NCBI GenBank assembly: GCA_037893245.1
Contig: JBAIAA010000074.1
Coordinates: 868,001 to 932,000 of the forward strand
Source: Crossaster papposus
Taxonomy: Eukaryota > Echinodermata > Asteroidea > Velatida > Solasteridae
Length of the DNA: 64,000 nt
Direction of reading: 5' to 3'
Positions 4,846 through 64,000 of this stretch are shown one piece after another. Positions within the stretch are counted from its first letter, which is position 1. Every line of letters starts with the position of its first letter. The position numbers and the translations under genes were made by a program. The notes below the pieces were generated by a model. The model was not told where the DNA came from and ran no database searches. It saw nothing but the letters and a program-made list of their open reading frames with translations.

Positions 4846-4857
4846 CATCCAAATTGT

Positions 4858-24200: not shown

Positions 24201-24450
24201 CTCCTTTCGCTTATGGAGCAGCAACCTCCTCGGTGGTTGGGGAATAGGAGTCGCGTCTCCCGTGTTGATGGCGTGTCTGGTCAGCTCTGTGTTCCCAAGG
24301 CGACCGTCGGGGCCGGTGAACGCCCCAGCGGACTCCGTCAGTAACCCGTCCAGTCGAGAAAGTTTGGTCCGGTCAAGGCCCGCCGCCCCTCGTTCCAGGA
24401 TGTGTTGAAGGTGAGGCGGAACCTCCGGCTGTGCGTCCCTTGGGGGATGG

Positions 24451-25659: not shown

Positions 25660-26160
25660 AACAGCTCCGCCCCTTTGGCTCCCGTACGGAGCAGCCCCAA
25701 CGTCTCCGCCCCGTTGACTTGTGTGCGGAGCAGCGCTGACGGCTCCGCTCCGTTGACTCAGGTTCAGAGCAGTGTCGATGGCTCCGCTTCATTTGCTTGT
25801 GCGCGGAGCAGTTCCGCCCCGTTGTCTCTCGTGCGGAGCAGCACCGAAGGCTCCGCCCTGTAAACTTGCGTGCAGAGCAGCTCCGTTTCATTGACTCTCG
25901 CGCGGAGCAGTGCCGACAGCTCCGCTCCATTGGCTCGTGTGCAGAGCAGCTCCACCCTGTTGGCTCCCGTGCGGAGCAGCTCCGGCGGATCCGCTTCACT
26001 TCATTGTGCGCGGAGCAGCTGCGTCCCTCTGGCTCCCGTGAAGAGCAGCTCTGACGGCTCCGCTCCATTGCCGCGGGTGCGGAGCAACCTCGTCCCCCTG
26101 CTCCCTGTGAGGAGCAGTTCCAATGGCTCCTCCGCCCCGTTGACTCGCCGGAAGAACCCT
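25490..26160. repeat. GC-rich minisatellite (gcggagcagctccgctcc-type)
   Basis: About 20 or more imperfect copies of a unit of roughly 27-33 bp containing 'tgcggagcag' and 'ctccgctccgttg'. It lies between the nucleocapsid and the element's 5' side, encodes RSCSAHEPTER-like repeats in one minus frame, and is open in several frames. Confidence 0.85.
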
Positions 26161-26800
26161 TGCCCCGTTGCCCCAGGGCGGCCTCCCGTCTTCCTGCCGG
26201 CTTCGAGCAATAGTTCCATGTGGAGTCCTCGCTCCACGGGAGGGCGCTGTTCTGGTGACCACCAGACGACCCCCCGCCCCCGATGTATCGACAAACGGAC
26301 TGAAAATACACTGGGTTCGTATAGGGAGTGTGGGTGTCTCGTCGATGCCCCGCCACCGCTGCAATGACAGCACGCTGTCGTCTGCAGCACGCCCCCCCCC
26401 CCCCCCCACGCACTGGGGTAGCGTAGTAAACCCAGGGAGTGTCCTTGCGGAGCCCCGCCCCCGCCGCATCGACGGCCACTGCTTGGCCTCGCTTCGCGTG
26501 GAACAAGCCGACTGCCTAGCCGCCGTATACAGCATCCCTACAGAAGATCTGGGAAATGTCACAACTGAGGCCCTGCCCCGGCTGCATCGACAGGCACAGC
26601 TTGAAATCGCGTGGAGCGAAACGGCTGCTGCGCCGCCGTCTACAACATGTGGCGGCCCCCCTCCGGACCCTGGACAAAATATGGGAAAGAGCGCCCTCAC
26701 TCCGAATCGGAGTGGACGTACTGTCGCCCCCAGCCCTTGGCGCATGTCCCGAAAATTCCCGCTATCCTTCCTCAACTGTTTCCCCAGGAAACCCTCCGAA
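26161..26800. other. 5' side of the retroelement or adjoining GC-rich DNA
   Basis: GC-rich with a C-run at 26390-26408 and Pro/Arg-rich frames on both strands that look like composition artefacts. No gag capsid motif and no LTR copy is seen. Confidence 0.4.
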
Positions 26801-26804
26801 TCCC

Positions 26805-27040
26805 AGACCGTTATAACGCCCTGAAACAGCCATATAATGCCCTAATACGGCGTTATAAGGTCTTACAAAAAAATTATTGATGAATAAAAAGAGCGGACAC
26901 AAATAATGCTTCACACATAACTAAAATGTAATGGATGTGTGCCCACCCTCGATGGAAGTTGTTACAACGCCGTATAATAGGGCGTTATAACGCTGCAAAT
27001 TTAGGGCGGTATACTAAAGGCGTTATTACAACGTAATTAA
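26805..27040. repeat. GGCGTTATAA motif cluster (possible MITE)
   Basis: Repeated 'gttataacgcc', 'cggcgttataagg', 'gccgtataatagggcg' and 'ggcgttattac' in both orientations on either side of an AT-rich middle. Ends not defined. Confidence 0.5.
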
Positions 27041-27168
27041 AACAGATATGTTCTTGGCGGAAATCAGCCACCGTAAAAATCACCGATAGCTTGGGTTATC
27101 TGCTTTGTTTAATCACCCGTACAAAAGACTAAGTGACGTTATGTTTTATGTGCGAACGTACATTACAG

Positions 27169-27383
27169 TGATGGTCACGTGCCATCAAGTCTGCTTAATC
27201 GGCTCAATGTACAACCCACAAGCTGGTATCCCACCCCGTTGGTTCCTACCGTACAACGATCCTTGCACATGTACCGCTGTACGTAGGGAGCCCCACTACC
27301 TGGACGAGCTGTGTGTGCACGACTCACGCACATATCCGACTAATTTATTTAACATAAGTTTGAAATTGATCTGTGAATGCTGA
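27169..27383 (+). CDS. Cysteine-rich (VWC-like) exon, copy 2
   Basis: An acceptor 'ttacag' at 27163-27168 opens a phase-1 exon. The translation has TCHQVCLIGS, YNPQAGIPP, DPCTCT and HYLDELC, then runs to a TGA at 27381-27383. It matches the 62452 exon but lacks about 13 codons between the CxC and the HYLDEL segment, in frame, and has no mucin repeats. The spacing C-x3-C...DPC-x-C recalls half of a von Willebrand factor C module. Likely function: a short secreted cysteine-rich protein when joined to a first exon such as 19872. It may be the last exon, since no strong donor is evident. Confidence 0.55.
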
Positions 27384-34066: not shown

Positions 34067-35848
34067 TCTCATTTGGTTGTGTGAACTTTTCGTTTCTAAA
34101 GCAATATTCATCAAAAACCAATTCAAAGGTAAAATGCATATAATTCAATTTTTCAGAACAATAACAGGATATCTAGCGCAGTTATTTTGCTGGATGCTTG
34201 GAATCATTATTTACTTTCAAATAAGTAAGATATTTCTGAATAATTCGGTAGTAAAATGTTTCGATATCTGTAAATGGTTTACCCTACTTTTAAGAACTTC
34301 ACTGCCCCAAACCGGATAATTTACCCAAAGATGATCGCATTGTTAACAGTGTTGTAAGTCTCGAGACCTGGACTGATATTAATAAAACCTGCGAAGCCTA
34401 TAGTTGGCTTCTAAAATAGCCCCTAGTTCACAGCTAAGCCTAGTTGGAAGCTAAGTGATATTATTAAAACTCTGCTAAGCTTATGGTTGCTAAGTTGGCT
34501 GCTATTTAGTGTTAACGTTAGAGTTAATCTGATGTGTCTCTATATAAGTCAATAGTTTGCAAATTATCCTCACCCAATATAGGGCTAGATTCTCCACAAC
34601 CAATAGAACATTGGGATACCTAACAAATTAATAGGCTTTCAAAACTCAAATCTGAATCCAAGAACCATGTTATCCAATGTAAAATATCTCGTAACAAAAT
34701 GGATCTCGCGAATCGCAGCGACCGGGGACTAAGTTTGCTTGGTTATTGACAGTACTTATAGGTCTCGTGAAATCGCCGCGATCGGGGACCAAGTTTGGTA
34801 AAATGTTGTCAAGTTATAGGTTTCGCGAAAATGCAACGATCGAAAACCTAAATATTGATCTGGCAATAAAACTGCTCAGGCCATACGTAAACAAACCTGT
34901 TACCTTGTCGAAAATGAGTTGTTCCAGCTGTCCTGTTGCGTAGGGTAATAAATCATGTATTTTTTTTCAACATCTTTCTCTGCACGTCCATATCAGTTCA
35001 TATTAAATGTATGCACAAATAATAATAGTTGTGGTACTTAATAAATCAGGATTAAACTTAGTCAAAATTACAAAAGCAGTATACTCTAATGTTGATAAAG
35101 TGTTTGACAAAAACGTTAATTATACTATTTTTGAATTCTATAGCCTCACTTTCATTTTTTTTTAAATGTGGCACAAAATATTAAGGTAAATGTTTAATCC
35201 ACAAAATTTAATTATTCATCTGAGAAGACTGGTATTAATTTGTAATTAAACTTTAGGTCATTTATATCCCTAAGTTGCAAAAAAGAAAATGTTGCCTCAC
35301 TTTCAATTCAGTATGGCCGACTCGTGAATAAAGCCCTTATACATTCGCTGCAAAATTCGCCCGAATTATGTTCGACTAATACGAATACCTTTCGTGATGT
35401 CACAAATACACGTTTGCATTTGCTTTTGTGCAGAGTATAAACTGACCTTTACACAAAAAATGAGGTTCTTCAAGATTTATATAACATTATATATAAAAAA
35501 AATAAAAAATAATGATACTCTTAGACATCCAAAAAATATAATATTTAAGCTTGCTCATTATTTCACTATTCATAAAACATGTATATAGATAGAGATGGCA
35601 CCAATAGTTTGTCCACAGTATTAGAAGTTAATACAAGTGGTTGGCAAATTGGAATACTAACTCGTAAATTTGTGGGATTCTTGGCATTGATGAGAGTTGT
35701 AAAGGAGATTAAAGGAATGGTTGCACGTGTGCCTATTATTTTCAACAATGTATTTTTTATATAATTGCATGCATGACTACGTATCCTTGGCAACAAACGT
35801 AGATTAATTTTACGTCACTGCTCCAACGCGAGTTAAAGTAATAGTCTA

Positions 35849-38744
35849 AACAAATTACATTCTGTTTGAGCCAAACCCCGGGTGTAAACGGACTTAAAAG
35901 CACTTAATTGTTTTTAAGGAATACAGCTATCCACGAGGCCGCACCCCTTTAAAAAGCGATTAATCACAGTGCATCATTTCAGGTCCGACAAATTGTCGCC
36001 ATTTTGCCCAACATAAATTACTTTATCATGCTTTACCGCACACTTAATAAGGGAATAAATGTGTGTTCGGTCGGTTTTAATCACTCTGTTTAATACCGCT
36101 TGGAGTCTGGGTGCTGATAATTACCCGAGCCGAAGGCGAGGGTAATTATCAGCACCCAGACTCCAAGCGGTATTAAACAGAGTGATTAATACCGACCGAA
36201 CACACATTTATTCCCATTCATAAATACCTTTTTTGTAAAATTCAGCCATAAAAGCCCCGAAAATCACGGAAAATTGTCGCAAGTAAATTTCGGTGTTTCG
36301 CCATTCTGTGCGTGTCAAACGACATCTTTCCGCCTCTGTCGCTCTACACAATACATGCAATAAAGCGTATTTACTAGGAACCAGACTATTACTGCTATTG
36401 ACAACCTCGTTTTCAGCGTGTCAAGCTGTACGCGCCCAACACCACCCTACTATTGGAGACGATGTACGGTTGGAAATAAAGTGAGCCCTGGGGACGAGTA
36501 TAATGCGACATCGCGTGACGTATTTTGCTGCCAACTGGTATTAAACACTTCCAGCCATGTCTTTATCGTCCGTTTAATACCGGCCACGTGACGGGCTCTC
36601 GACCAATAGAAATGCCTAAACTGTCCCAGGTATTTATGAATGTTGATTTAACGTTTATTTCAATTGTACACTCCAATTCTAGCGCTTCTGTGGAGGACAC
36701 AATGAAAATGTAATAGATGTATGAAAACTATCAATTTCTGTTCATGCTTAGAACATTTATCTGTCAATTTTTTGCAAACGACGAGGCAGATGGCAGGCTG
36801 GTAATGGCTGCTGTTTTATGAATTATCCCCATTGAATACTGAATTATAAATCGTAATGGTAGAATTGTATGTTTGTCTTTTTCATCGACATTTACCCCCC
36901 CCCCCCCCCCCACCCCCCCCCCCCCCCCGCCCCTCCCCCTTGACATTTATCTACCACTGACTGCACTTAAAGTTGTAGCATTTGTCAGTTGTGATTGTTT
37001 ATTGTTTGAAGCAGCAACAGTTTTCAAAAATCGATCTACCCTGACGAAGTTTTAGCTCTGCGAATGCTGTATATATTCCAAGAAAATGACATTTATAAGA
37101 TTTCGACTTGTAACCAACTACTTATGAAATGTTCACAAAATGCGTCTTCGAGACGCATCTTTGGACTTCTTTTGATTATTTCTTTAAAATGACAGCATAT
37201 CAGAAGGAATAATTTCAGAAGAAGTCTATAATAACAGTTCAGTAAAGTATTTCGTGATAATTAAGGCTTTTAAAAATATATATTGACAAATGTTGTGTAC
37301 ATATACCGTTAAAAAAAAAATGTTTATTTAAGAATTGCTTTTGTAGAAGCTTGAGAAACTGAAGAAATTAAATGTGAGAGTTGCTATGATGAATTTAAAT
37401 AACAAATGTTTCAAAATAGCCGAGGAAACCTATACAGGTTGAGTATTTTCCCCTCAAGTGCACGACGTAGGGTATCATGTTGGGTACAACGAATTTTTCT
37501 GACTACCCCGTGGAATCCCATTAATTTAAAAGGCGTATAGAGTAATTTGTTTCACGCCAACTGACTTGTTGCCTTCATTGCATCATCTTTAATTATTTCG
37601 ACCCTCCAGGTACGTTTCTTTTTCTAAAGGTTCGTTGTTTACACGTCTGTGTAATTGCCTAGACCGACCTTGATTGCTATTGAGGAGTCTGTGTTTGTTA
37701 CTAGAATCCGTGTCAGTTTGTATGCAGTGCCGCGCTGTTTCATAACGATTCGTGACTGTTTACGAACGAGATAGTATTCATGAGCCTGGTCTCACGGTGG
37801 TCTACGGCCACTTAGCTGACGTGGCAAACTACGTACGTTCGAGTATTTGTTTAAAACATCTTTCTCTGCACGTCCATATCAGTTCATCTTAAGTTTATGC
37901 ACAAATATTAATAGTTGTGGTAATAAATCAAGATAAAATTTAGTCAAAATTACAAAAGCAGTATACTCTAATGTCGATAAAGTGTTTGACAAAAACGTTC
38001 ATTTTTGATAAGGTCCAAGACTATTTTTGCATTCTTCAGCCTCACTTTCATTTTTTTTTTTAATGTAGCACAAAATATTAAGGTAAATGTTGAATCAACA
38101 ACATTTTATTATTCATCTGAGAAAAGTGGTATTAATTTGTAATTAAACTTTAGGTCATTTATATCCCTAGTTGCAAAAAAGAAAATGTTGCCTCACTTTC
38201 AATTCAGTATGGCCGACTCGTGAATAAAGCCCTTATACTTTCGCTGCAAAATTCGCCCGAATTATGTTGGACTAATACGAATACCTTTCGTAATGTCACA
38301 AATCCACGTTTGTATTTGCTTCTGTGCAGAGTATAAACTGACCTTTACAAAAAAATGAGGTTCTTCAAGATTTATATAACATTATATATAAAAAAAATAA
38401 AAAATAATGATACTCTTAGACATCCAAAAAATATAATATTTAAGCTTGCTCATTATTTCACTATTCATAAAACATGTATATAGATAGAGATGGCACTAAT
38501 AGTTTGTCCACAGTATTAGAAGTTAATACAAGACGGTTGGCAAAGTGGAATACTAACTCGTAAATTTGTGGGATTCTTGGCATTGATGAGAGTTGTAAAG
38601 GAGATTAAAGGAATGGTTGCACGTGTGCCTATTATTTTCAACAATGTATTTTTTATATAATTGCATGCATGACTACGTATCCTTGGCAACAAACGTAGAT
38701 TAATTTTACGTCACTGCTCCAACGCGAGTTAAAGTAATAGTCTA
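35849..38744 (+). repeat. Array unit 3 (shortened)
   Basis: Lacks everything between the promoter region and the 'ttaaaacatctttctctgc' block: at about 37846 'gtacgttcgagta' joins directly to 'tttgtttaaaacatc'. From about 35665 to 37846 it is virtually identical to 38561-40742. Confidence 0.88.
36049..36641. mobile_element. Composite foldback insertion in unit 3 with CTCGGCTTCGC-type loop
   Basis: Absent from units 1, 2, 5, 6 and 7, which read 'cacttaatgttgattta' without break. Part one (36051-36215) is a hairpin with arms of 76 bp that differ at about one position, with loop 'cgagccgaaggcgag'. Part two (36216-36641) is bounded by inverted 'attcataaatacct'. Flanks show only 'aat'. No transposase. 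The frame at 36293-36484 is not supported as a gene. Confidence 0.85.
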
Positions 38745-38944
38745 AACAAATTACATTCTGTTTGAGCCAAACCCCGGGTGTAAACGGACTTAAAAGCACT
38801 TAATTGTTTTTAAGGAATACAGCTATCCACGAGGCCGCACCCCTTTAAAAAGCGATTAATCACAGTGCATCATTTCAGGTCCGACAAATTGTCGCCATTT
38901 TGCCCAACATAAATTACTTTATCATGCTTTACCGCACACTTAAT

Positions 38945-39537
38945 AAGGGAATAAATGTGTGTTCGGTCGGTTTTAATCACTCTGTTTAATACCGCTTGGA
39001 GTCTGGGTGCTGATAATTACCCGAGCCGAAGGCGAGGGTAATTATCAGCACCCAGACTCCAAGCGGTATTAAACAGAGTGATTAATACCGACCGAACACA
39101 CATTTATTCCCATTCATAAATACCTTTTTTGTAAAATTCAGCCATAAAAGCCCCGAAAATCACGGAAAATTGTCGCAAGTAAATTTCGGTGTTTCGCCAT
39201 TCTGTGCGTGTCAAACGACATCTTTCCGCCTCTGTCGCTCTACACAATACATGCAATAAAGCGTATTTACTAGGAACCAGACTATTACTGCTATTGACAA
39301 CCTCGTTTTCAGCGTGTCAAGCTGTACGCGCCCAACACCACCCTACTATTGGAGACGATGTACGGTTGGAAATAAAGTGAGCCCTGGGGACGAGTATAAT
39401 GCGACATCGCGTGACGTATTTTGCTGCCAACTGGTATTAAACACTTCCAGCCATGTCTTTATCGTCCGTTTAATACCGGCCACGTGACGGGCTCTCGACC
39501 AATAGAAATGCCTAAACTGTCCCAGGTATTTATGAAT
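38945..39537. mobile_element. Composite foldback insertion, unit 4 copy
   Basis: Identical by eye to 36049-36641 at an offset of 2896 bp, so it was copied with the unit rather than inserted again. Confidence 0.88.
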
Positions 39538-40875
39538 GTTGATTTAACGTTTATTTCAATTGTACACTCCAATTCTAGCGCTTCTGTGGAGGACACAATG
39601 AAAATGTAATAGATGTATGAAAACTATCAATTTCTGTTCATGCTTAGAACATTTATCTGTCAATTTTTTGCAAACGACGAGGCAGATGGCAGGCTGGTAA
39701 TGGCTGCTGTTTTATGAATTATCCCCATTGAATACTGAATTATAAATCGTAATGGTAGAATTGTATGTTTGTCTTTTTCATCGACATTTACCCCCCCCCC
39801 CCCCCCCCACCCCCCCCCCCCCCCCCGCCCCTCCCCCTTGACATTTATCTACCACTGACTGCACTTAAAGTTGTAGCATTTGTCAGTTGTGATTGTTTAT
39901 TGTTTGAAGCAGCAACAGTTTTCAAAAATCGATCTACCCTGACGAAGTTTTAGCTCTGCGAATGCTGTATATATTCCAAGAAAATGACATTTATAAGATT
40001 TCGACTTGTAACCAACTACTTATGAAATGTTCACAAAATGCGTCTTCGAGACGCATCTTTGGACTTCTTTTGATTATTTCTTTAAAATGACAGCATATCA
40101 GAAGGAATAATTTCAGAAGAAGTCTATAATAACAGTTCAGTAAAGTATTTCGTGATAATTAAGGCTTTTAAAAATATATATTGACAAATGTTGTGTACAT
40201 ATACCGTTAAAAAAAAAATGTTTATTTAAGAATTGCTTTTGTAGAAGCTTGAGAAACTGAAGAAATTAAATGTGAGAGTTGCTATGATGAATTTAAATAA
40301 CAAATGTTTCAAAATAGCCGAGGAAACCTATACAGGTTGAGTATTTTCCCCTCAAGTGCACGACGTAGGGTATCATGTTGGGTACAACGAATTTTTCTGA
40401 CTACCCCGTGGAATCCCATTAATTTAAAAGGCGTATAGAGTAATTTGTTTCACGCCAACTGACTTGTTGCCTTCATTGCATCATCTTTAATTATTTCGAC
40501 CCTCCAGGTACGTTTCTTTTTCTAAAGGTTCGTTGTTTACACGTCTGTGTAATTGCCTAGACCGACCTTGATTGCTATTGAGGAGTCTGTGTTTGTTACT
40601 AGAATCCGTGTCAGTTTGTATGCAGTGCCGCGCTGTTTCATAACGATTCGTGACTGTTTACGAACGAGATAGTATTCATGAGCCTGGTCTCACGGTGGTC
40701 TACGGCCACTTAGCTGACGTGGCAAACTACGTACGTTCGAGTACTTGCCGATATACGGCGAACTCTAACGGAGTGTTCAGCATTTCGTCATGTGGTATTT
40801 TTTCGAATCCTTGACCTGTTTGTGAGCATTTGTAGACAATCTCCATCCGGATCAGGGACGTAGTGTGTTATTATT

Positions 40876-42656: not shown

Positions 42657-42946
42657 GGGGAGTCGGGTTGGTGTAGCGGTTCTTTCCTCGCCTTCCACCA
42701 CTATGACCCGGGTTCAAATCCGGACTGGGCCAATAATTATGTGGATTGGATTTTCAGTCCCTGCCTGACTCCGTGGGTTTTTCCCCAGGATATTCTTCTG
42801 GGGTTTTCCTCCCACCTCTAAAACTGTAACTTCTTCACATTAATTGTTGAATGAAATAACAAATTGTTGAATGAAATTTGTTCCCGCCGTGAATATGGCC
42901 ATTGATGCTGGGACGGCGTTAAACCCTAAAAACTCACTCACTCACT
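42657..42946 (+). mobile_element. tRNA-derived SINE with (ACTC)n tail, unit 4
   Basis: Same family as 4561. The target-site duplication 'tcataaaaca' is on both sides. An identical insertion with the same duplication is in unit 5 (49144), while units 1, 2, 3 and 6 have the empty site 'attcataaaacatg' (attcatgaaacatg in unit 6). Confidence 0.92.
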
Positions 42947-44632
42947 CATAAAACATGTATATAGATAGAGATGACACTAATAGTTTGTCTACATTATTAG
43001 AAGTTAATACAAGTGGTTGGAAAAGTGGAATACTAACTCGTAAATGTGTGGAATTCTTGGCATTGAGAGTTGTGAAGGAGATTAAAGGAATGGTTGCATG
43101 TGTGCCTATTATTATTTTCAACAATGTATTTTTTTAATAATTGCATGTATGACTACGTATCCTTGGCAACAAACGTAAATTAATTTTACGTCACTGCTCC
43201 AACGCGAGTTGAAGTAATAGTCTAAACAAATTACATTATGTTTGGGCCAAACCCCCGGTGTAAACGGACTTAAAAGCACTTAATTGTTTTTAAGGAATAC
43301 AGCTATCCACGAGGCCACACCCCTTTAAAAAGCAATCAATCACAGTGCATCATTTCAGGTCCGACAATATGTCGCCATTTTGCCCAACAGAAATTACTTT
43401 ATCATGCTTTACCGCACACTTAATGTTGATTTAACGTTTATTTCAATTGTACACTCCGATTCTAGCGCTTCTGTAGAGGACACAACGAAAATGTAATAGA
43501 TGTATGAAAACTGTCAATTTCTTTTCATGCTTAGAACATTTATCTGTCAATTTTTTGCAAACGACGAGGCAGATGGCAGGCTGGTAATGGCTGCTGTTTT
43601 ATGAATTATCCCCATTGAATACTGAATTATAAATCGTAATGGTAGAATTTTATGTTTGTCTTTTTCATCGACATTTACCCCCCCCCCCCCAAACGCCCCG
43701 CCCCCTCCCCCTTGACATTTATCTGTCACTGACTGCACTTAAAGTTGTAGCATTTGTCAGTTGTGATTGTTTATTGTTTGAAGCAGCAACAGTTTTCAAA
43801 AATCGATCTACCCTGACGAAGTTTTAGCTCTGCGAATGTTGTATATATTCCAAGAAAATGACATTTATAAGATTTCGAATTGTAACCAACAACTTATGAA
43901 ATTTTCACAAAATGCGTCTTCGAGACGCATCTTTGGACTTCTTTTGATTATTTCTTTAAAATGACAGCATATCAGAAGGAATAATTTCAGAAGAAGTCTA
44001 TAATAACAGTTCAGTAAAGTATTTCGTGATAATTAAGGCTTTTAAAAATATATATTGACAAATGTTGAGTACATATACCGTTAAAAAAAAATTGTTTTTT
44101 TAAGAATTCCTTTTGTAGAAGCGTGAGAAACTGAAGAAATTAAATGTGAGAGTTGCTATGATGAATTTGAATAACAAATGTTTCAAAATAGCCGAGAAAA
44201 CCTATACAGGTTGAGTATTTCCCCCTCAAGTGCACGACGTAGGGTATCATGTTGAGTACAACGAATTTTTCTGACTACCCCGTGGAATCCCATTAATTTA
44301 AAAGGCGCATAGAGTAATTTGTTCACGCCAACTGACTTGTTGCCTTCATTGCATCATCTTTAATTATGTCGTCCCTCCAGGTACGTTTCTTTTTCTAAAG
44401 GTTCATTGTTTACACGTCTGTGTAATTGCCTAGACCGACCTTGATTGCTATTGAGGAGTCTGTGTTTGTTACTAGAATCCGTGTCCGTTTGTACGCAGTG
44501 CCGCGCTGTTTCATAACGATTCGTGACTGTTTACGAACTTGATGGTATTCATTGTTCAGTTTCAAGGTGATATTTTCGTTAGTTTCAAATCGGTGTTTTG
44601 CTTTAGCTAGAAACTGTAATTACCAGACAATG

Positions 44633-47063
44633 CCCAGGTGAAAATTCCAGTTGAAACCAGTTAAACTTTCAACTGGTTTCAACTGTTTTGAACTGGAATT
44701 AACTGGTATCCAACTGGTACGTGATGGAATCAACTGGCATCAACTGGTAGCTCAATCAGATTCAACAAAAACCAGTTGAAACCAGTTGTAAGCAGTTAAA
44801 GAACCAGTTACCAACTGGTAATTTGTGTGGCGACAATAGGAACCAGTTGAAACCAGTTGTAGGAACATTTACTGGTCAATCTTGTGGCGACAATAGGAAA
44901 CAGTTTAAACCAGTTGAATGAACCAGTTACCAACTGGTCATTCTTGTGGTGAAAATAGGAAACAGTACAAACCAGTTGAAGGAACCAGTTACCAACTGGT
45001 CATTCTTGTGCCGACAACAGGAAACAGTTCAAATCAGTTGAAGGAACCAGTTACGTACGTACCCTGAACTGGTCTTTTTTATTAACAATAACCAGTTGAA
45101 ACCAATTGTTGAAACCAGTTACATGTACCAACTGGTCAAGTGAACAGGAACCAAATAAAACATTCTTTAAAAGTCTAATTACATCCCCAACAAAATCAAC
45201 AGACAGCACATTTTCCCCAACTTTATTTATTAAAAATACCTATTGCCAAGAACCAACACCCCCCTCGACTTCCGCAATACCAGTTGCAAAAATCAGTGGC
45301 AAGATTCGAACCAGTTGCAAGATTCGAACCAGTTGCAAGAACCAGTTGCAAGAACCAGTTGCAAGAACCAGTTGCAAGAACCAGTTGCAAGAAACCAGTT
45401 GCAAGAAACCAGTTGCGCCAAAACCAGTTGCGCCAAAACCAGTTGCGCCAAAACCAGTTGCGCCAAAACCAGTTGCAAGAAACCAGTTGCGCCAAAACCA
45501 GTTGCGCCAAAACCAGTTGCGCCAAAACCAGTTGCGCCAAAACCAGTTGCGCCAAAACCAGTTGCGCCAAAACCAGTTGCGCCAAAACCAGTTGCGCCAA
45601 AACCAGTTGCGCCAAAACCAGTTGCGCCAAAACCAGTTGCGCCAAAACCAGTTGCGCCAAAACCAGTTGCGCCAAAACCAGTTGCGCCAAAACCAGTTGC
45701 GCCAAAACCAGTTGCGCCAAAACCAGTTGCGCCAAAACCAGTTGCGCCAAAACCAGTTGCGCCAAAACCAGTTGCGCCAAAACCAGTTGCGCCAAAACCA
45801 GTTGCGCCAAAACCAGTTGCGCCAAAACCAGTTGCGCCAAAACCAGTTGCGCCAAAACATGCAGTTGCAAAAGCCAGTTGCAGAAACCAGTTGCAGAAAC
45901 CAGTTGCAGAAACCAGTTGCAGAAACCAGTTGCAGAAACCAGTTGCAGAAACCAGTTGCAGAAACCAGTTGCAGAAACCAGTTGCAGAAACCAGTTGCAG
46001 AAACCAGTTGCAGAAACCAGTTGCAGAAACCAGTTGCAGAAACCAGTTGCAGAAACCAGTTGCAGAAACCAGTTGCAGAAACCAGTTGCAGAAACCAGTT
46101 GCAGAAACCAGTTGCAGAAACCAGTTGCAGAAACCAGTTGCAGAAACCAGTTGCAGAAACCAGTTGCAGAAACCAGTTGCAGAAACCAGTTGCAGAAACC
46201 AGTTGCAGAAACCAGTTGCAGAAACCAGTTGCAGAAACCAGTTGCAGAAACCAGTTGCAGAAACCAGTTGCAGAAACCAGTTGCAGAAACCAGTTGCAAA
46301 AACCAGTTGCAAAAACCAGTTGCAAAAACCAGTTGCAAAAACCAGTTGCAAAAACCAGTTGCAAAAACCAGTTGCAAAAACCAGTTGCAAAAACCAGTTG
46401 CAAAAACCATGCAGTTGCGAAAACCAGTTGAAAAACCAGTTGCAAAACCAGTTGCAATAGTCGATGTTAAATTGTGGTATTTTGTCCAAAAATGCACTTT
46501 TGTGACATTATATGTAATTATTCAAACGATTCCATGATTGAATTTATATTTTTGTGCAAACATAGTTAAAAATTCCCATTACATTCCATTCGTATTCAAA
46601 TTTTGACATTATTCATAAAAACTAGCTGTGACTATGTCGTGGACAAAAAAGTGTAGTATAAAACTAACTAACGGCGATGGCTAAGTGTGTAGTATGTATT
46701 TACATGTAGTAGGTAATATATAAGAGTAGGTTATTATTGGATGTATAACTACTTCCCCTATAGTAATGTTTAATAAGTAAATTCCATTGGTATTATTTCA
46801 TTACGGAATTCCACGCAGTTATATATCAGAACGTTCATTGGTTTTTGGTTTCAAAACCAGTTAAGCCAGTTAAACCAGTTCAATACCAGTTAAACCAGTT
46901 CAATACCAGTTAAACCAGTTAAACCAGTTCAATACCAGTTAAACCAGTTCAATACCAGTCACCAATTCCCAGTTGAACTGGACCAGTTGAGACCAGTTCG
47001 ACTGGTTTTAACTGGTCCCAACTGGTCCAGTTCAACTGGTTTCAACTGGAATTTTCACCTGGG
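44633..47063. mobile_element. Satellite-like TIR element made of CCAGTT motifs
   Basis: Termini are perfect inverted repeats starting CCCAGGTGAAAATTCCAG. They sit inside a unit sequence that is continuous elsewhere ('accagggaatgctcattggc'), with TG on both flanks. Nearly the whole interior consists of AACCAGTT/AACTGGTT in both orientations, except an AT-rich spacer at about 46455-46850 without the motif. No transposase. All six frames are open over the arrays because the repeats lack stops; none of these frames is a gene. Confidence 0.88.
45283..46450 (+). repeat. Three consecutive minisatellites of 13, 15 and 13 bp sharing CCAGTTGC
   Basis: 45283-45405: ccagttgcaagaa (13 bp). 45405-45858: ccagttgcgccaaaa (15 bp, about 29 copies, with one gcaagaa interruption at about 45474). 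45878-46410: ccagttgcagaaa then ccagttgcaaaaa (13 bp, about 40 copies). Very homogeneous, so recently expanded. Confidence 0.95.
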
Positions 47064-49143: not shown

Positions 49144-49430
49144 GGGGAGTCGGGTTGGTGTAGCGGTTCTTTCCTCGCCTTCCACCACTATTACCCGGGT
49201 TCAAATCCGGACTGGGCCAATATGTGGATTGGGTTTTCAGTCCCTGCCTGACTCCGTGGGTTTTTCCCCAGGATATTCTTCTGGGGTTTTCCTCCCACCT
49301 CTAAAACTGTAACTTCTTCACATTAATTGTTGAATGAAATAACAAATTGTTGAATGAAATTTGTTCCCGCCGTGAATATGGCCATTGATGCTGGGACGGC
49401 GTTAAACCCTAAAAACTCACTCACTCACTC
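49144..49430 (+). mobile_element. tRNA-derived SINE with (ACTC)n tail, unit 5
   Basis: Same insertion as at 42657, including the tcataaaaca duplication; inherited by unit duplication. Confidence 0.92.
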
Positions 49431-49893
49431 ATAAAACATGTATATAGATAGAGATGACACTAATAGTTTGTCTACATTATTAGAAGTTAATACAAGTGGT
49501 TGGAAAAGTGGAATACTAACTCGTAAATGTGTAGAATTCTTGGCATTGAGAGTTGTGAAGGAGATTAAAGGAATGGTTGCATGTGTGCCTATTATTATTT
49601 TCAACAATGTATTTTTTTAATAATTGCATGTATGACTACGTATCCTTGGCAACAAACGTAAATTAATTTTACGTCACTGCTCCAACGCGAGTTGAAGTAA
49701 TAGTCTAAACAAATTACATTCTGTTTGGGCCAAACCCCGGGTGTAAACGGACTTAAAAGCACTTAATTGTTTTTAAGGAATACAGCTATCCACGAGGCCA
49801 CACCCCTTTAAAAAGCGATCAATCACAGTGCATCATTTCAGGTCCGACAATATGTCGCCATTTTGCCCAACAGAAATTACTTTATCATGCTTA

Positions 49894-53466: not shown

Positions 53467-53782
53467 TTAACAAGAAGTCTATAATAACAGTTCAGTAAAG
53501 TATTTCGTGATAATTAAGGCTTTTAAAAATATATATTGACAAATGTTGTGTACATATACCGTTAAAAAAAAAATTGTTTTGTTAAGAATTGCTTTTGTAG
53601 AAGCGTGAGAAACTGAAGAAATTAAATGTGAGAGTTGCTATGATGAATTTGAATAACAAATGTTTCAAAATAGCCGAGAAAACCTATACAGGTTGAGTAT
53701 TTTCCCCTCAAGTGCACGACGTAGGGTATCATGTTGGGTACAACGAATTTTTCTGACTACCCCGTGGAATTCCATTAATTTA

Positions 53783-54247
53783 GTGAGTGAGTGAGGTTTT
53801 AGGGTTTAACGCCGTCCCAGCATCAATGGCCATATTCACGGCGGGAACAAATTTCATTCAACAATTTTTTTATTTCATTCAACAATTAATGTGAAGAAGT
53901 TACAGTTTTAGAGGTGGGAGGAAAACCCCAGAAAAATATCCTGGGGAAAAACCCACGGAATCAGGCAGGGACTGAAAACCCAATCCACATATTGGCCCAG
54001 GCCGGATTCGAACCCGGGTCATATAGTGGTGGAAGGCGAGGAAAGAACCGCTACACCAACCCTCCTCCCCTCCCCCCTCCCCTCCCCCCTCCCTTCCCCT
54101 CCCCTCCCCCCTCCCCTCCCCTCCCCTCCCCTCCCCTCCCCTCCCCTCCCCTCCCCTCCCCTCCCCTCCCCTCCCCTCCCCTCCCCTCCCCTCCCCTCCC
54201 CTCCCCTCCCCTCCCCTCCCCTCCCCTCCCCTCCCCTCCCCTCCCCC
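53783..54247 (-). mobile_element. tRNA-derived SINE with expanded CCCCT head
   Basis: Reverse-oriented copy of the 4561 family, from the (GTGA)n end at 53783 to the A-box region at about 54045. The target-site duplication 'tccattaattta' (53771-53782, 54248-54259) encloses both the SINE and the pentanucleotide tract, so the microsatellite formed within the SINE's own 5' end. Confidence 0.92.
54059..54247 (+). repeat. (CTCCC)n pentanucleotide microsatellite
   Basis: About 37 copies, irregular at the left end and perfect afterwards. It replaces the 'cgactcccc' that normally heads the SINE (minus strand 'ggggagtcg'). Confidence 0.95.
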
Positions 54248-56018: not shown

Positions 56019-57779
56019 TTGTGTGAACTTTTCGTTTCTAAAGCAATATTCATTAAAAGTCCATTCAAAGGTAGGATACATAGGCCCATAGGTAATTCAA
56101 TTTTTCGGAACAATTACAGGATATCTAGCACAGTAATTTTAATGGATGCCTGAAATCATTATTCATTTTTAAATAAGTGAGATATTTCTGAATAATTCGG
56201 TAGTAAAATTGTTCGATATCTGTAAATGGTTTACCCTATCTTTAAGGACTTCACTGCCTCCAAACCGGATAATTTACCCAAAGATGATCGCATTGTTAAC
56301 AGTGTTGTAAGTCTCGAGACCTAGGCTGATATTAATAAAAGCCTGCGAAGCCTATACATGTAGTTGGCTGCTAAAATAGCACCTAGTTGACAGCTAAGCC
56401 TAGTTGGAAACTAAGTGATATTCAAAAAACTTTGCAAAGCTTGTGGTTGCTAAGTTGGCTGCTATTTAGTGTTAACGTTAGAGTTAATCTAATGTGTCTC
56501 TAAGTCAATAGTTCTCACCCAATATAGGGCTAAATTCTCCACAACCAATAGAACATTGGGATACCTAACAAATTAATAGGCTTTCAAAACAAAAATCTGA
56601 ATCCAAGAACCATGTTATCCAATGTAAAATATCCCGTAACAAAATAGATCTCGCAAATCGCAGCAACCGGGGTCTGAGTTTGCTTCGTTATTGACAGTAC
56701 GTATAGGTCTCGTGAAATCGCTGCGATCAGGGACCAAGTTTGGTAAAATGTTGTCAAGTTATAAGTTTCGCGGAAATGCAACGATCGAAAACCTAAATAT
56801 TGATCTGGCAATAAAACTGCTCAGGCCATACGTAAACAAACCCGTTACCTTGTCAAAGATGAGTTGTTCCAGCTGTCCTGTTGCATAGGGTAATAAATCA
56901 TATTTATTTAAAACATCTTTCTCTGCACGTCCATATCAGTTCATCTTAAATGTATGCACAAATATAAATAGTTGTGGTACTTAATAAATCAGGATTAGGT
57001 TTAGTCAAAATTACAAAAGCAGTATACTCTAATGTTGATAAATTGTTTGACAAAAACGTTCATTTTCGTTATTTTTGCATTCTATAGGCTCACTTTCAAT
57101 TTTGTTGTTAATGTGGCACAAAATATTAAGGTAAATGTTTAATCAACAAAATTTAATTATTCATCTGAGAAGACTGGTATTAATTTGTAATTAAACTTTA
57201 GGTCATTTTTATCCCTAAGTTGCAAAAAAGAAAATGTTGCCTCACTTTCAATTCAATATGGCCGACTCGTGAATAAAGCCCTTATACATTCACTGCAAAA
57301 TTCGCCCGAATTATGTTCGACTAATACCAATACCTTTTGTGATGTCACAAATCCACGTTTGCTTCTGTGCAGAGTATAAACTGACCTTTACAAAAATATG
57401 AGGTTCTTCAAGAATTATATAACATTATATATAAAAAACAATAATGAAACTCTTAGACATTCCAAAAATCTAATATTTAAGCATTGCTCATTATTTCACT
57501 ATTCATGAAACATGTATATAGATAGAGATGGCACTACTTTGTCCACATTATTAGAAGTTAATACAAGTGGTTGGAAAAGTGGAATACTAACTCGTAAATT
57601 TGGGGAATTCTTGGCATTGAGAGTTGTGAAGGAGATTTTTTAAAGGAATGGTTGCACGTGTGCCTATTTTTTTCAACAATGTATTTTTTAAATAAATGCA
57701 TGCATGACCACGTATCCTTGGCAACAAACGTTGATTAATTTTACGTCACTGCTCCAACGCAAGTTGAAGTAATAGTCTA

Positions 57780-58500
57780 AACAAATTACATTCTGTTTGG
57801 GCCAAACCCCGGGTGTAAACGGACTTAAAAGCACTTAATTGTTTTTAAGGAATACAGCTATCCACGAGGCCACACCCCTTTAAAAGGCGATCAATCACAG
57901 TGCAACATTTCAGGTCCGACAAATTGTCGCCATTTTGCCCGACATAAATTACTTTAACATGCTTTACCGCACACTTTAATGTTGATTTAACGTTTATTTT
58001 AATTGTACACTCCGATTCCAGCGCTTCTGTGGAGAATACAATTGAATAGATGAATGAAAGCTATCTATTTATTTCATTTCAAGCTTAGAAAATTAATTTG
58101 TCAATGTTGTCCAAACGACGAGGCAGATGGCAGGCTGGTAATGGTTGCTTTTTATGAATTGTAGTGGTAGAATTTTATGTTTGTCCTTTTCATCGACATT
58201 TACCCCTCCCCTCCCCCTTGACATTTATCTGTCACTGACTGCACTTATAGTTGTAGCATTTGTCAGTTGTGATTGTTTATTGTTTGAAGCAGCAACACTT
58301 TTCAAAAAACGATCTACCTTGACGAAGTTTTAGCTCTGCGAATGCTGTATATATTCCAAGAAAATGACATTTTTAAGATTTTGACAGTGTAACCAACTAT
58401 TTATGAATATATTCAAAAAATGCGTCTCGGAGACACATCTTTAGACTTCTTTTGATTATTTCTTCAAAATGAAAGCATATCAGAAGGAATAATTTCAGAG
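57780..58500 (+). repeat. Array unit 7 (partial, most diverged)
   Basis: Keeps the anchor, C-tract remnant, 'gatctaccttgacgaag' and 'gcatatcagaaggaataatt', then departs from the unit at about 58497. It marks the right edge of the array. Confidence 0.85.
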
Positions 58501-58611
58501 GGAGTCTTTAATTCTTGACATCATGTAAGCAAATAAACAATAATTTGGTTGGTTACTTTTTGGATAGTTGCAAACAGTATATACGTTCCCTTTATTAGAT
58601 TGAGGGTTACG

Positions 58612-59990
58612 TATGGTGGCCCTGAAGGGACTACGCAGATCGTGAATATTGACGTCAATATTCACGACAAATTTCACGACTTTCCTCAAAGTCGCGAATA
58701 TTGACGTCAATATTGACGTCAATATTCACGACTTTCCTCCAAAGTCGCGAATATTGACGTCAAATTTGACGTCAAATTTCGCGACTTGCCTCCAAAGTCG
58801 CGAATATTGACGTCAAATTTGACGTCAAATTTCACGACCAGACATAAATTTTGACGCGAAGTTTTTTCAAGCAAACTAAGTTGTCTTCCATTCCTCCATG
58901 TTTTTGGCTAGTCTTGCTCCAAGACTGAGTTTTTGTTCTGGGGCGCGCCGTCCGTCTAGTCCATGCAGTTCATCAATCATCAATACTCAGAAATCGGGCT
59001 TATTGAGGGCGCCCTCGATTGTCACGAGAGATCAGTGGATTTGTTTTAAAGGTATAGGTAGGATACGGTATGATACACCATTGGTAATTACTTGAATTAT
59101 CATGAATGGGTGGATTTTGGGGGTTGGATTTTATAGTAAATCTCGTTTAACTGACCTTTACAATAATTTATTGATGGCGAGAAAATCACGAAAAACTGCG
59201 TTTGTTTTCAACCGCCGTCGGGCAGTTGAATATTCTTGTTATTATTCGGGGTTTTTTCGATCGCCGTCCGGTGAACAAAATCGGAATAATTACAGGATAT
59301 TTTGCGCGATCATTTAGCTGGATGCCTAGAATCATAATTTACCTTCAAAATAAGTAAGATATTTCTTAATAATTCGGGAGTAAATATTGTTGATATCTGT
59401 ACCCTACCTTTAAGTTCAGTTCACGAGATTTGTTTCTGAACTTGAAACAAATCCACTGATATCTCGTGACAATCGAGGGCGCCCTTAATATAAGCCCGTT
59501 TTCGGAGTATGGGGGATTAATGAACTGCATAGACAGACGGACGGCGCGCCCCGGACAAATGAAAATCTCAGTCTTGGAGCAAGACTAGCCAAAACCTAGC
59601 TTGCTGGAACAAAATTCGCGTCAAAATATTCGCGACTTTGGGGCAAGTCGCGAAATTTGACGTCAAATTTGACGTCAATATTCGCGACTTTTGGGGAAAG
59701 TCGTGAATATTGACGTCAAAATTGACGTTAATATTCGCGACTTTGAGAAAAGTCGTGAATTTTGTCGCGAATATTGACGTCAATATTCGCGACTTTCTCC
59801 AAAAGTCGCGAATATTGACGCGAATGTCGACGTCAAATTTGACGTCAATATTTGCGACTTTTGGGGAAAGTCGTGAATATTGACGTCAATATTGACGTCA
59901 ATATTCGCGACTTTGAGGAAAGTCGTGAAATTTGTCGTAAATATTGACGTCAATATTCACGATCTGCGTTGTCCCTTCAGGGCCACCATA
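58612..59990. mobile_element. Foldback element with TTGACGTC-motif arms and 6-bp target duplication
   Basis: Ends TATGGTGGCCCTGAAGGGAC, inverted at 59971-59990, with direct repeats GTTACG immediately outside. The outer arms (58612-58850 and 59610-59990) are made of 'gtcgcgaatattgacgtcaa' reiterations. A second inverted pair lies inside (about 58895-59055 and 59433-59600, with 'gtcttgctccaagactgag' and 'atcgagggcgccct'). The spacer 59060-59430 resembles the intron block at 10140-10300. Built by successive insertions. Confidence 0.85.
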
Positions 59991-60014
59991 GTTACGCGTA
60001 TGTTTACGAGTAAA

Positions 60015-60195
60015 TGCCGGTTCATACTAGGCGCGAAAGCGATTGCGATACGAATTTGACGACACAGGGCGTTCGCTGCGAACATTCGCTCAAGTTGAAA
60101 TGTGTTCAACTTTTGCGATTTCGCATCGCGAAAACTCCCCCTGACGTCACAAATTCGCGTTCGCGTTTGCTTTCGCGCCGAGTATGAACCGGCCT
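60015..60195. mobile_element. Short MITE with GCCGGTTCATACT termini
   Basis: Inverted ends GCCGGTTCATACTAGGCGCG and its complement near 60194, with a 'cgcgaaagcgattgcg'-rich interior and central TGACGTCA. A degenerate relative occurs in each array unit (for example 30800-30870, 'gtgatgtcacaaatccacg', 'cagagtataaactgacc'). Confidence 0.75.
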
Positions 60196-60960
60196 TAACG
60201 AACACAAATAAGCTCTTCAATCATTCATTCGCGGCACTGCGCTTCAGTGAAGAAGACAATTATGGAGCAGCAACAAATATTCATCCATCGCCAACAAAAC
60301 AACAAAACAAACCAATTTACAAACTGGAGGCAAAAACAGGTATAGCCCGGTTCTTTTGTATGTATTCATAACAAATAATAATAATTTGGAAGCTACGCGC
60401 TGGTTCCAAATCGACTCCATTGGAGTAATGAATGGAAACCAGTTCATATTCCAATCATATAATAAAGAACATGTACTAACATAAATCGCAGACGGGTCAG
60501 TGCGGTTATACCTGACCGGTTAAATTTCTCCTGCAAGTGTCAGTGAATTTAACTTCAAACTTTAACCTAATGAACTTGTTTTAATTTGTTTTGCAGCTAT
60601 ACATGTACTTTGTTTTATGTTATTGTTCTAGGTGATATTACTATTAAAAGGCATCAAAGAATGTACCCTGAATTCAGTGGCGGCACCAGACTCCGGGGAA
60701 AATTTAGATTCTAGATGCCCTGTGGTTCAATCCGAGGCATTTCCTGGCCACACTCCCCTGGCGTTTGAGCTGAAAATGCATGGAAACGTTTCCGACGCTG
60801 CAACCACGCCACTATGTTTGTTTTACACAAGGATCCAAACACCTTTATAATAAGCAGTGGAGACCAAGATCACTTACCATCTAGATACATGTACTCGGCA
60901 CGGGTGGACTATTGAACAAGAACTATCCAATCAGAGCACGAAGCCCATCAGCGTTCCCCA
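60196..60960. other. Upstream region of the 61-kb gene
   Basis: No gene is supported. A 72-residue frame at 60632-60850 resembles nothing I recognise and may be TE-derived ('gtggcggcaccagactccgg'). Confidence 0.4.
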
Positions 60961-60974
60961 GCGCCTACCTAGCC

Positions 60975-60982
60975 TATATAAT
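60975..60982 (+). promoter_or_regulatory. TATA box (TATATAAT) of the secreted mucin-like gene
   Basis: Consensus TATA element 102 bp before the ATG, the same spacing as in the three paralogous first exons. Transcription would be expected to start near 61005. Confidence 0.65.
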
Positions 60983-61076
60983 CGGTGGTCCGCTGTATGT
61001 AGCTCTCCAGAGGCGAGTTGGCGTAATATCTGTAGGCCGTATGGTTATTTCATCAACGGATTTTGGAACGAGGAGA

Positions 61077-63485
61077 ATGGACGAAGTAGTAGTTTGGGTT
61101 GTGCTGTGGTTATCGGTATTTGCATGTAGATTCGATTTTTCATAACGCACCAAATACCGCTTTTAAATTATAGTGATTGAGTCAATGAATTTCTGTTCAG
61201 GGATTGAACGCTGTGTACGTTTTTTGAATGTACTTGACCTATTTTATATTGTTTTATTCATTATACTATTTTTGGTTTTTACTATGCAACTAACGCTGCG
61301 TTCCAATCGCGTCGTGTTTATCGTGTTTACCGTGAATTTCTCCATGTTCACGAGTGGGTTGCATTCCAAACGCTACCCGTGGTCCTGTCACACCAGAACG
61401 TTTTAGGCCAACGCGTGAGTAGCGCTTTAAAAATAGTTGATACGCTGGCAAACGCTGAACTTCCACAGAAAAGGTCAAGTGGAACCGTGATTTCAGCGTG
61501 TTCATAGCGAGTTGATAACGGGTTCATAGCGTTCGCCAGCGCGTAAGTAACGCGTTAGTAACGCGTTTCCTTTTATAGCCGTCCCACCTTCGGTTGCCGT
61601 TTGGTGCGCCACCGGTACATGTTCGGAATACAAACGGAATTGCCGGAATACGCTCAGAATGCGATCGGAATAGTTCGGAATGCATGCGGAATAGTCCGGA
61701 ATTACGTCGCTTTTGACCGGTAGACGTTCGGTGAACAATTCGGTGCATATTCTTTGCAACCGGAGACGAACGGAATATAAACGAAATGTTCTGAAAGCGG
61801 TCGGTCTTGAGATCAATGTACGGTGATGATCGGAGAGGTTCTGAATATAGACGGATTGCAATCGGAATGGCAACTTATTAAATCCGGAATAAGACCGGAT
61901 TATAATCGGTGTATTTTAAATTCTGGCTGGTTTTTTGACATTTTTCTCCGAACGTGTCCGAATTAAAAATATTTCAGATCGGTTTATGAACGGAATTATA
62001 GATTCGGACAAGTGTGACAGGGGCTTTATATAATTTCAGGACTCTTTGGTATACGTAAATACGGACTCTTTGGTATATATTGCGCATGTTTTGTTTCAGT
62101 GATGATCATGATATTTGTGGGGCAAAGAATGTGCCCCTAGTTGGAAATTATATGATAACATTGCAGCAGTGGCAGCTTTTTGAGTGTTATCATCGTTTTC
62201 GTTTTGTTTAATGGCCGCCAATAATGCTTGTTACCACATAATTGATCCGGTAACAAACATATTGGCGGCCATTTTTAGAAATAAAAGCTTCCACCGCTCA
62301 TTCTGCAATGCTATCACACATTTTCCAACTCTTGGTGTGCATACCTTCGCACAAAATCGTTATGAGAATTACTCTTCTCGGTCATTTGATACCGGTGGCA
62401 TAATTGTTAATATAATTTGTATATATATGTTTCTTTGCATTTTTACGTAAGTGCTGGCATCATGTCATCAAATCTGCTTCATTGGATCGGAGTACAACCC
62501 ACAGTCTGGTACCCCACCCCGTCGGTTCCTACCGTACACAGATCCGTGTGGATGCACCGCTGTGCGTCTCGGCGGAATGCGCATCCCTGCTTCGTCATAC
62601 CAGCAAAAGGCGCCCCACTACCTGGACGAGCTTTTCCTCAGCGAGGACTCCGACGAAATTCGAGCTTACTTCAACTGTACCCCGGCGACCACGGCGAGCC
62701 CGGCGACCACGGCGAGCCCGGCGACCACGGCGAGCCCGGCGACCACGGCGAGCCCGGCGACCACGGCGAGCCCGGCGACCACGGCGAGCCCGGCGACCAC
62801 GGCGAGCCCGGCGACCACGGCGAGCCCGGCGACCACGGCGAGCCCGGCGACAACGGCGAGCCCGGCGACCACGGCGAGCCCGGCGACCACGGCGAGCCCG
62901 GCGACCACGGCGAGCCCGGCGACCACGGCGAGCCCGGCGACCACGGCGAGCCCGGCGACCACGGCGAGCCCGGCGACCACGGCGAGCCCGGCGACCACGG
63001 CGAGCCCGGCGACCACGGCGAGCCCGGCGACCACGGCGAGCCCGGCGACCACGGCGAGCCCGGCGACCACGGCGAGCCCGGCGACCACGGCGAGCCCGGC
63101 GACCACGGCGAGCCCGGCGACCACGGCGAGCCCGGCGACCACGGCGAGCCCGGCGACCACGGCGAGCCCGGCGACCACGGCGAGCCCGGCGACCACGGCG
63201 AGCCCGGCGACCACGGCGAGCCCGGCGACCACGGCGAGCCCGGCGACCACGGCGAGCCCGGCGACCACGGCGAGCCCGGCGACCACGGCGAGCCCGGCGA
63301 CCACGGCGAGCCCGGCGACCTCTGAGAGTCCAGCAGCCAATGCGAGGCCAGCGGCCAATGCGAGGCCAGCGATCAGTAAGATGTTATCTAATACCATTTT
63401 AAAAAGCTGCTATTCTTTTGTTGGACAAAGCATTATGACTACGTTTCAGGCCCGAGTACATGTTGCCATGAAACTCACGCTTTGA
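61077..63485 (+). CDS. Secreted cysteine-rich (VWC-like) mucin-like protein, two exons
   Basis: Exon 1 is 61077-61125: MDEVVVWVVLWLSVFA, a signal peptide ending in phase 1 at donor 'tgtaga'. Its 5' UTR matches the other first exons (gttggcgt..., cggatt, gagaATGGACG). Exon 2 starts at 62452 after a T-rich tract and AAG, also phase 1, so the frame joins. It gives LLASCHQICFIGS, YNPQSGTPP, DPCGCT, HYLDEL and FNCT (a possible N-glycosylation site), then 35 PATTAS repeats for dense O-glycosylation, then a 58-residue tail to the stop at 63485 (360 residues in all). A gtaag at 63376 could instead splice on after phase 1, making exon 2 a symmetric 1-1 exon. The fragment CxxxxGxxYxxxxGxxP...DPCxC recalls a von Willebrand C module; mucus or extracellular coat is the inferred location. 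The 61126-62451 intron holds a TIR element. Splicing is predicted, not observed. Confidence 0.62.
61379..62028. mobile_element. Chimeric TIR element in intron 1 (CGGAAT motif)
   Basis: The left 200 bp is the end of the ACGCTGGC family (ggtcctgtcacaccagaacg). The remainder is filled with 'cggaat', 'attccg' and 'gttcgg' reiterations and ends 'aagtgtgacaggggctt', an imperfect inverted partner of the left end. It looks like two families joined. Confidence 0.65.
62209..62276. mobile_element. Short hairpin MITE (AATGGCCGCCAATA)
   Basis: AATGGCCGCCAATA ... TTGTTACC faces its complement GGTAACAA ... TATTGGCGGCCATT around a 12-bp loop, within the gene's intron. Confidence 0.75.
62682..63311 (+). repeat. 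18-bp coding minisatellite, 35 copies (PATTAS)
   Basis: ccggcgaccacggcgagc repeated 35 times without indels. The single variant (cgacaac at about 62848) is silent in the PATTAS frame and changes an amino acid in both other plus frames. The +1 frame reads a collagen-like GDHGEP series, but the conserved upstream module runs into PATTAS. Confidence 0.95.
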
Positions 63486-63665: not shown

Positions 63666-64000
63666 CAATGTAGGTTTCACTGCTCGGCATGAATTATTCA
63701 TAGATACATATTAGCATGCCAATACGCCCAATCGGAACGGCGATCTCCCAGTTGGCTTCGTTCGTGATTCGTTCAATATCAAAGCATGTAGGAAAAGGTA
63801 AAAAAACGTATATAAATTTTGCTTCTGAGTTGAATATATGAATGATAAATACAAGATATCACATTTAAATCTACTTTACATGCAAAATTGCAATAAATTA
63901 GAAAGCAACTGATGATTTGAGCTAAATATTGTAAGTGACATGATTGGACATTCCCTGTTTGTAAAATGAACTAGTCCAACTCAAATATAAGCTGACGTCA
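63666..64000. other. 3' flank with candidate AATAAA
   Basis: AT-rich. AATAAA at 63892-63897 is about 410 bp after the stop of the mucin-like gene and is the best candidate poly(A) signal. Nothing else recognised. Confidence 0.35.

Follow-up and report, generated by a model that had tools for sequence, protein, structure and literature searches.

A two-exon gene organisation joining a five-cysteine module to an 18-bp PATTAS array in Crossaster papposus, and a probable family of mucin-like proteins

Introduction

Proteins in which Pro/Thr/Ser-rich repeats lie beside cysteine-rich domains include the vertebrate gel-forming mucins, with their large VWD/C8/TIL architecture, and stickleback spiggin, which is a tandem gene family. 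Small secreted cysteine modules with a C-x-C motif include the VWC and single-VWC domains, which have about eight to ten cysteines. SmPoMuc of Schistosoma mansoni consists of approximately 6–10 genes of 15 exons, with a 27-bp repeat exon lying in 1-kb genomic repeats, and its authors call the family specific to that species (PMC2576457). For the mucin genes of Trypanosoma cruzi, a review gives a share of 25% pseudogenes (PMC7602482).

In the present study we analysed a window of 64,000 nucleotides (the whole stretch of DNA under study; contig 74, positions 868001–932000) of C. papposus and searched the 1.02-Gb assembly of 1841 contigs from which it comes. A sequence-only reading had proposed a two-exon secreted protein at positions 61077–63485 of the window, with a new VWC-like cysteine module heading a mucin, and as a whole this reading was partly supported. 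Judging from the gene anatomy, the family, the exon linkage, the module constraint and the array turnover, all seen in the sequence, we conclude that the locus probably belongs to a large multigene family that turns over fast, encodes secreted mucin-like proteins and has expanded through duplication, with decay of copies.

Results

Anatomy of the focal gene

Analysis of the locus confirmed the two-exon gene organisation at 61077–63485 on the forward strand, with corrections to its first description. Exon 1 (61077–61125) starts with the ATG at 61077 and contains 16 codons (MDEVVVWVVLWLSVFA) plus one base, ending in T|GTAGAT with the donor GT at 61126. It is hydrophobic, common to the family and a putative signal peptide, and it begins with MDE; two acidic residues at the start are unusual in a signal peptide. 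A predicted phase 1 intron extends from 61126 to about 62450 with its acceptor AG at 62450–62451, and the phase 1 junction claimed earlier was supported. The start of exon 2 and the five-cysteine module (62452–62678) follow, with the first cysteine at 62463 and the last at 62676–62678; the C-x3-C and DPC-x-C motifs described earlier were found together with the final cysteine. The module runs in frame into a Pro/Thr/Ser/Ala-rich, mucin-type array of 18-bp PATTAS units (62681–63320), then into 17 residues of degenerate units (63321–63371) and a tail (63372–63485) made up of ISKMLSNTI (63372–63398), 28 more residues and the stop TGA (63483–63485). A possible polyadenylation signal, AATAAA, lies at 63892–63897. 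The joining of exon 1 to exon 2, as predicted from the two exons, gives MDEVVVWVVLWLSVFA-L-LAS-CHQICFIGSEYNPQSGTPPRRFLPYTDPCGCTAVRLGGMRIPASSYQQKAPHYLDELFLSEDSDEIRAYFNC-TPATTAS..., a frame ending at 63485 without a stop or frameshift.

The TATA box reported earlier was found as TATATAA at 60975–60981 (forward strand), in a promoter/5′ UTR block common to family members. By itself this motif is weak evidence, because 79 such motifs are present on the same strand of the window. The focal anatomy goes beyond chance, since other places in the genome show the same combination of promoter block, exon 1, acceptor, module and tail. Within the tail, ATCA|GTAAGA was considered as a splice donor and dropped, as it was absent among the sites scoring above 3 in a donor matrix; a small intron at 63374–63449 is conceivable and would alter the last residues alone.

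An Rfam scan and a tRNA scan of the window each gave no match. Several other repeats are present in the window. Between 28445 and 58512, stretches of 2.3–2.9 kb occur in several copies with 91–98% identity, including a tandem pair at 34957–37849 and 37843–40747. A minisatellite of 13–15 bp units (AACCAGTTGCAAA, AAACCAGTTGCGCCA) at 45327–46457 has several frames on both strands open over 400 codons. A SINE-like repeat with a tRNA-like box and a CTCACTCACTCA tail was found at 4561–4848, 42657–42949, 49144–49432 and 53782–54071, the last three copies being 95–97% identical to the first, and an 833-bp direct duplicate with 98% identity lies at 10026–10858 and 12818–13650.

A cysteine module that may represent a new domain family

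The cysteine spacing of the module, C-x3-C-x23-C-x-C-x40-C, was invariant in all 12 aligned modules. A Pfam search of 12 modules with E up to 10 returned no family for any of them, a search with the focal module likewise gave none, and no VWD, C8, TIL or cystine-knot domain was matched in the module. The VWC-like assignment was not borne out, as there was no VWC/SVWC profile match among the 12 modules and the module has five cysteines. A profile search of the PDB returned three FANCM chains alone (E 0.42–0.53), which we took as chance, and these searches agree with the earlier remark that no described family could be recognised. AlphaFold2 run on the three module copies of the window gave a model too poor to use (pLDDT 52.5, pTM 0.39). 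Viral contigs yielded no relatives among six pattern matches, and prokaryote contigs yielded one among nine, where the similarity covered 15 residues of an archaeal bin and was also taken as chance. The mollusc haemocyanin profile PF14830 was matched neither here nor in any of 14 controls and was therefore uninformative. A literature search for PATTAS with mucin found no paper, and in wider searches, with most subscription papers outside their coverage, no described family with the cysteine module was seen. The module is a candidate for a new domain family.

A genome-wide family with linked exons

Searching the assembly with the module gave 430 first-look candidates; the best 150 of these were scored and all 150 matched, none with a stop, in a best-first list that is biased towards intact copies and misses broken ones such as copy c1 of the window (see below). 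When a more distant module served as query, 452 candidates were obtained; all 150 that were scored matched, many of them at the same places as the focal-module matches. From the best 150 of the 430, we hand-picked 72 focal-type modules on 41 contigs by identity and open frame. Fetched copies (numbered with L) were assigned to types by tree and anatomy. The focal type comprised 21 fetched copies, mostly chosen for long open frames, and the focal copy itself (22 in all), with c1 as sister to this type in the tree. The second type, often met on contigs 164, 632 and 697, comprised eight fetched copies and c3 of the window. L032 stood for one of the other, small types, and L035 and L036 for another. 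Twenty loci were selected mainly because their open frames were long, and the later-picked loci mainly because theirs were short; many family copies look broken.

The acceptor AG was kept in all 22 focal-type copies. An exon-1 motif was found at most 6 kb away in 14 of the 22, and 12 of these 14 had at least one ATG-bearing motif; no motif was found within 6 kb in the other eight loci (2 kb searched for L040). A looser alignment showed a truncated exon 1 also in L023 and L027, and exon 1 of L015 and L020 has ATA in place of ATG. Two exon-1 copies lie upstream of one module in both L021 (the ATG copy at 2.2 kb and the ATA copy at 0.7 kb) and L026, which makes alternative first exons possible at these two loci.

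The linkage was also seen from the exon-1 side. An exon-1 query of the genome gave 143 candidates, of which 40 were scored and all matched, and for 31 of the 40 a hand-listed module lies downstream on the same strand at 0.37–7.5 kb (373–622 bp in 25 and 1.3–7.5 kb in six). The remaining nine had no listed module within 8 kb. Similarly, a promoter-block query gave 146 candidates, and all 40 scored matched; a listed module lies within 8 kb of 15 of them, and the other 25 lack one. Such module-less matches may be overcounted, because the list holds 72 picked of 150 scored of 430; they suggest that the promoter–exon 1 block was duplicated alone, or that there are longer introns or other second exons. 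In the approximately 1.5 kb read at each of two such loci no module was present: L047 has the promoter and exon 1 with ATG and donor, and L048 the promoter and an exon 1 with ATA and no donor GT. The sequence-only reading had named, as what would speak against it, a cysteine exon occurring only as a genome-wide repeat with random flanks. The module is indeed repeated genome-wide, but the focal-type flanks are not random, because exon 1, acceptor and tail are common to the copies.

The focal copy compared with its relatives

The family form of exon 1 is MDGVVVWVVLRISALA with the donor CAG|GT, mostly GTAGA or GTAGG; against the GCAG|GT of the family, the focal site GCAT|GTAGAT is a weaker donor. 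Immediately before the donor the focal copy has T, where all 13 other loci with the exon-1 motif have G. A crude scan for signal exons, based on a donor matrix, missed the focal exon 1 (donor score −0.7; no picks in 57000–62440); in the rest of the window it passed nine starts on the forward strand and three on the reverse. The focal intron also has about 0.8 kb (approximately 61246–62056) that is extra compared with several copies, and a repeat at 61380–61565 within it recurs at 49.9–51.8 kb of the window. These features, together with the 28 residues beyond ISKMLSNTI, would fit a copy of a real family that is recently decaying or silent, its donor weak, its intron invaded by repeats and its usual stop passed. 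We regard this as a serious possibility that falls short of being probable. The focal exons as joined have no stop or frameshift and the module retains all five cysteines, and passing the stop is no special defect of this copy: among the 19 copies with a tail, 11 stop directly after ...TI and eight, the focal one included, read through.

Constraint on the module and the question of a mobile element

Two further module copies are present in the window, both on the forward strand, and similarity among the three begins near the AG acceptor in each. Copy c1 (3699–4018) has a module at 3699–3949 with a one-base loss near 3843, ends in ...YFDCNEMATTTATIG... and continues after the module into a short T-rich tail without an array; it looks like a pseudogene. 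Copy c3 (27169–27383) is of the second type, with a TTACAG acceptor, a 39-nt in-frame gap that removes 13 codons of the module, and a stop TGA at 27381–27383. The second-type exon has a TTACAG-like acceptor and, in seven of the eight copies, an end ...QSTG at a donor-like ACAG|GTTAGA, which suggests that it is probably a phase 1-1 exon with further exons.

Among the forward frames, dN/dS was lowest in the module frame in both types. For the 22 focal-type modules it was 0.45, and the remaining two frames gave 0.77 and 1.68; for the eight second-type modules it was 0.24, compared with 1.11 and 1.93. Among the three window copies, the module frame gave 0.27–0.53 and the other two forward frames 0.69–2.47, with 15, 15 and 29 substitutions (three pairs summed) at codon positions 1, 2 and 3 respectively. 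The reverse frames gave 0.50–1.43, with stops in every one, and for the c1–c3 pair one of them (0.57) was close to the module frame (0.53). The similarity of focal-type copies is centred on the module: mean identity was 93.5% without gaps in the module (22 copies), 84.8% with 22% gaps in the intron end beside it (22 copies) and 65.9% with 29% gaps in the 3′ flank (19 copies). The common sequence fades on both sides without one sharp border, a pattern more in keeping with segmental duplication than with a mobile unit whose ends are fixed.

A Gypsy-like retroelement lies on the reverse strand at 21800–27280, where Pfam matches were obtained in two of the three reverse-strand pieces scanned near c3 (reverse transcriptase RVT_1, E 8e-16; zinc knuckle, E 8e-6), and c3 is approximately 1.4 kb beyond its gag piece. 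A gag-like stretch also lies upstream in three of the eight fetched second-type copies (L031/L043, L034 and L037, where only a short piece is present besides the gag repeat array), in the same order and orientation as at c3, 0.4–2.7 kb away at differing offsets. These neighbours, the hundreds of module candidates genome-wide, and the promoter and exon 1 found without a listed module nearby could mean that the module travels as a domain of a mobile element, which copies it, and is not part of a host gene family; we consider this improbable. The other five second-type copies had no gag match in the approximately 2 kb upstream, and no LTR pair was recognised around the element of the window; the only direct repeats flanking it, at approximately 19.9–20.3 and 29.2–29.5 kb, are copies of a repeat that also occurs in other parts of the window. 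Moreover, the genes have their own promoter, an exon for a putative signal peptide and a module frame under constraint, and the focal type lacks a shared sharp border. For the second type, both retroelement-borne copying and a duplicated segment already containing the element would fit.

Array turnover

The focal array has a period of 18, 35.6 copies and 99% matches. Of the 35 repeats counted earlier as exact, 34 are so and the remaining one differs by a synonymous ACC>ACA change. Its 231 residues (P 17, T 31, S 16 and A 34%) form a long Pro/Thr/Ser-rich tandem-repeat domain, one of the features of secreted mucins. Units in the focal-type copies were PATTAS, PATTPN, PATTAR, PATTAN, PAATAS, PETTAT and mixtures of these. 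In the 20 copies without a frameshift, array length ranged from 132 to 816 residues and P+T+S+A from 81 to 100%, compared with 75% in L026 and 27% in L016. The arrays of 19 of the 22 copies run in frame to a common SKM/SKI tail, a share that is not a genome-wide estimate because the loci were mostly picked for long open frames; L015 ends without this tail, and the arrays of L016 and L026 contain frameshifts.

The array can also be read in another frame, open at 62411–63325, as perfect Gly-X-Y repeats, and L016 and L026 switch partly to it. Translation as a collagen-like (GDHGEP)n protein is nevertheless extremely unlikely: the constraint on the module falls in the PATTAS frame, it is this frame in which the 19 copies (from a set mostly picked for long frames) reach the tail, and the sole focal unit variant is synonymous in it and H>N in the collagen frame.

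Within the PATTAS arrays the amino acids were not detectably constrained, as 29 of 77 single-base unit variants were synonymous, compared with 22.8 expected (20 loci). Off-register spacings were in frame in 75 of 78 cases, and four of seven that were not multiples of 9 kept the frame. This is weak evidence, because the unit consists of two similar 9-bp halves, and frame-keeping was dropped as proof of translation for the same reason. Closely related copies differed in their arrays. L045 and L046 encode the same module protein, and their DNA is 94% identical in the first 1.7 kb, yet they have 337 and 256 residues respectively after the module (tail included) and a different unit order, and L017 and L028 share 97.8% module DNA identity and differ in array flavour. 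As read from these alignments, array turnover outruns module change.

Discussion

In a secreted mucin-like family of this kind, a transcript would carry exon 1 as the signal peptide, and splicing would join it to exon 2 with its compact five-cysteine module. The module is probably disulphide-bonded, and the odd cysteine could bind a second chain. The Pro/Thr/Ser/Ala array would be densely O-glycosylated in the Golgi to give a stiff, hydrated rod, and the released protein may form mucus or coat a surface, with a use in mucus, adhesion, a hard-part matrix, reproduction or defence being conceivable. The module may serve as a constant working head for anchoring, pairing or binding. The array would then be an adjustable spacer that carries glycans, with unequal exchange and slippage altering its unit, flavour and length, while gene copies would multiply via segmental duplication and then decay. 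A bolder proposal, which we think unlikely, is a germline-diversified repertoire in which dozens of co-regulated secreted mucins have one undescribed binding head in common and glycan-carrying arrays with a faster turnover than that of the genes, so that every individual would have a set of its own, serving in the mucus as a recognition or defence coat.

A constant head with freely evolving arrays is a natural experiment on array length and unit in a mucus-type protein, and the family is also informative on how minisatellites inside genes yield new proteins. Such genes would probably be collapsed in a short-read assembly.

Compared with described systems, the module resembles VWC/SVWC domains in being a small, probably secreted cysteine module with C-x-C, but it has five cysteines and no profile match. 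Pro/Thr/Ser-rich repeats beside cysteine-rich domains are shared with the gel-forming mucins and with stickleback spiggin; unlike the gel-forming mucins, the module here matched no VWD, C8 or TIL domain. The T. cruzi mucins (TcMUC) are likewise a large family with threonine-rich tandem repeats and have a signal peptide, which is putative in the present genes, but they are protozoan and GPI-anchored, whereas the present genes are from an animal, have a cysteine module and show no obvious hydrophobic C-terminus (PMC7602482). SmPoMuc is similarly a mucin multigene family of one animal, in which tandem repeats vary in number, recombination is frequent and both truncated copies and traces of retroelements occur (PMC2576457). 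Its genes have fifteen exons, and a duplicated unit of exon 2 holds the repeat; the genes found here differ in their two exons, exonic 18-bp array and cysteine head, and in their 72 hand-listed copies on 41 contigs. As described in these two sources, neither SmPoMuc nor TcMUC has the cysteine head or the gene plan of the present family, and the two are its nearest described parallels.
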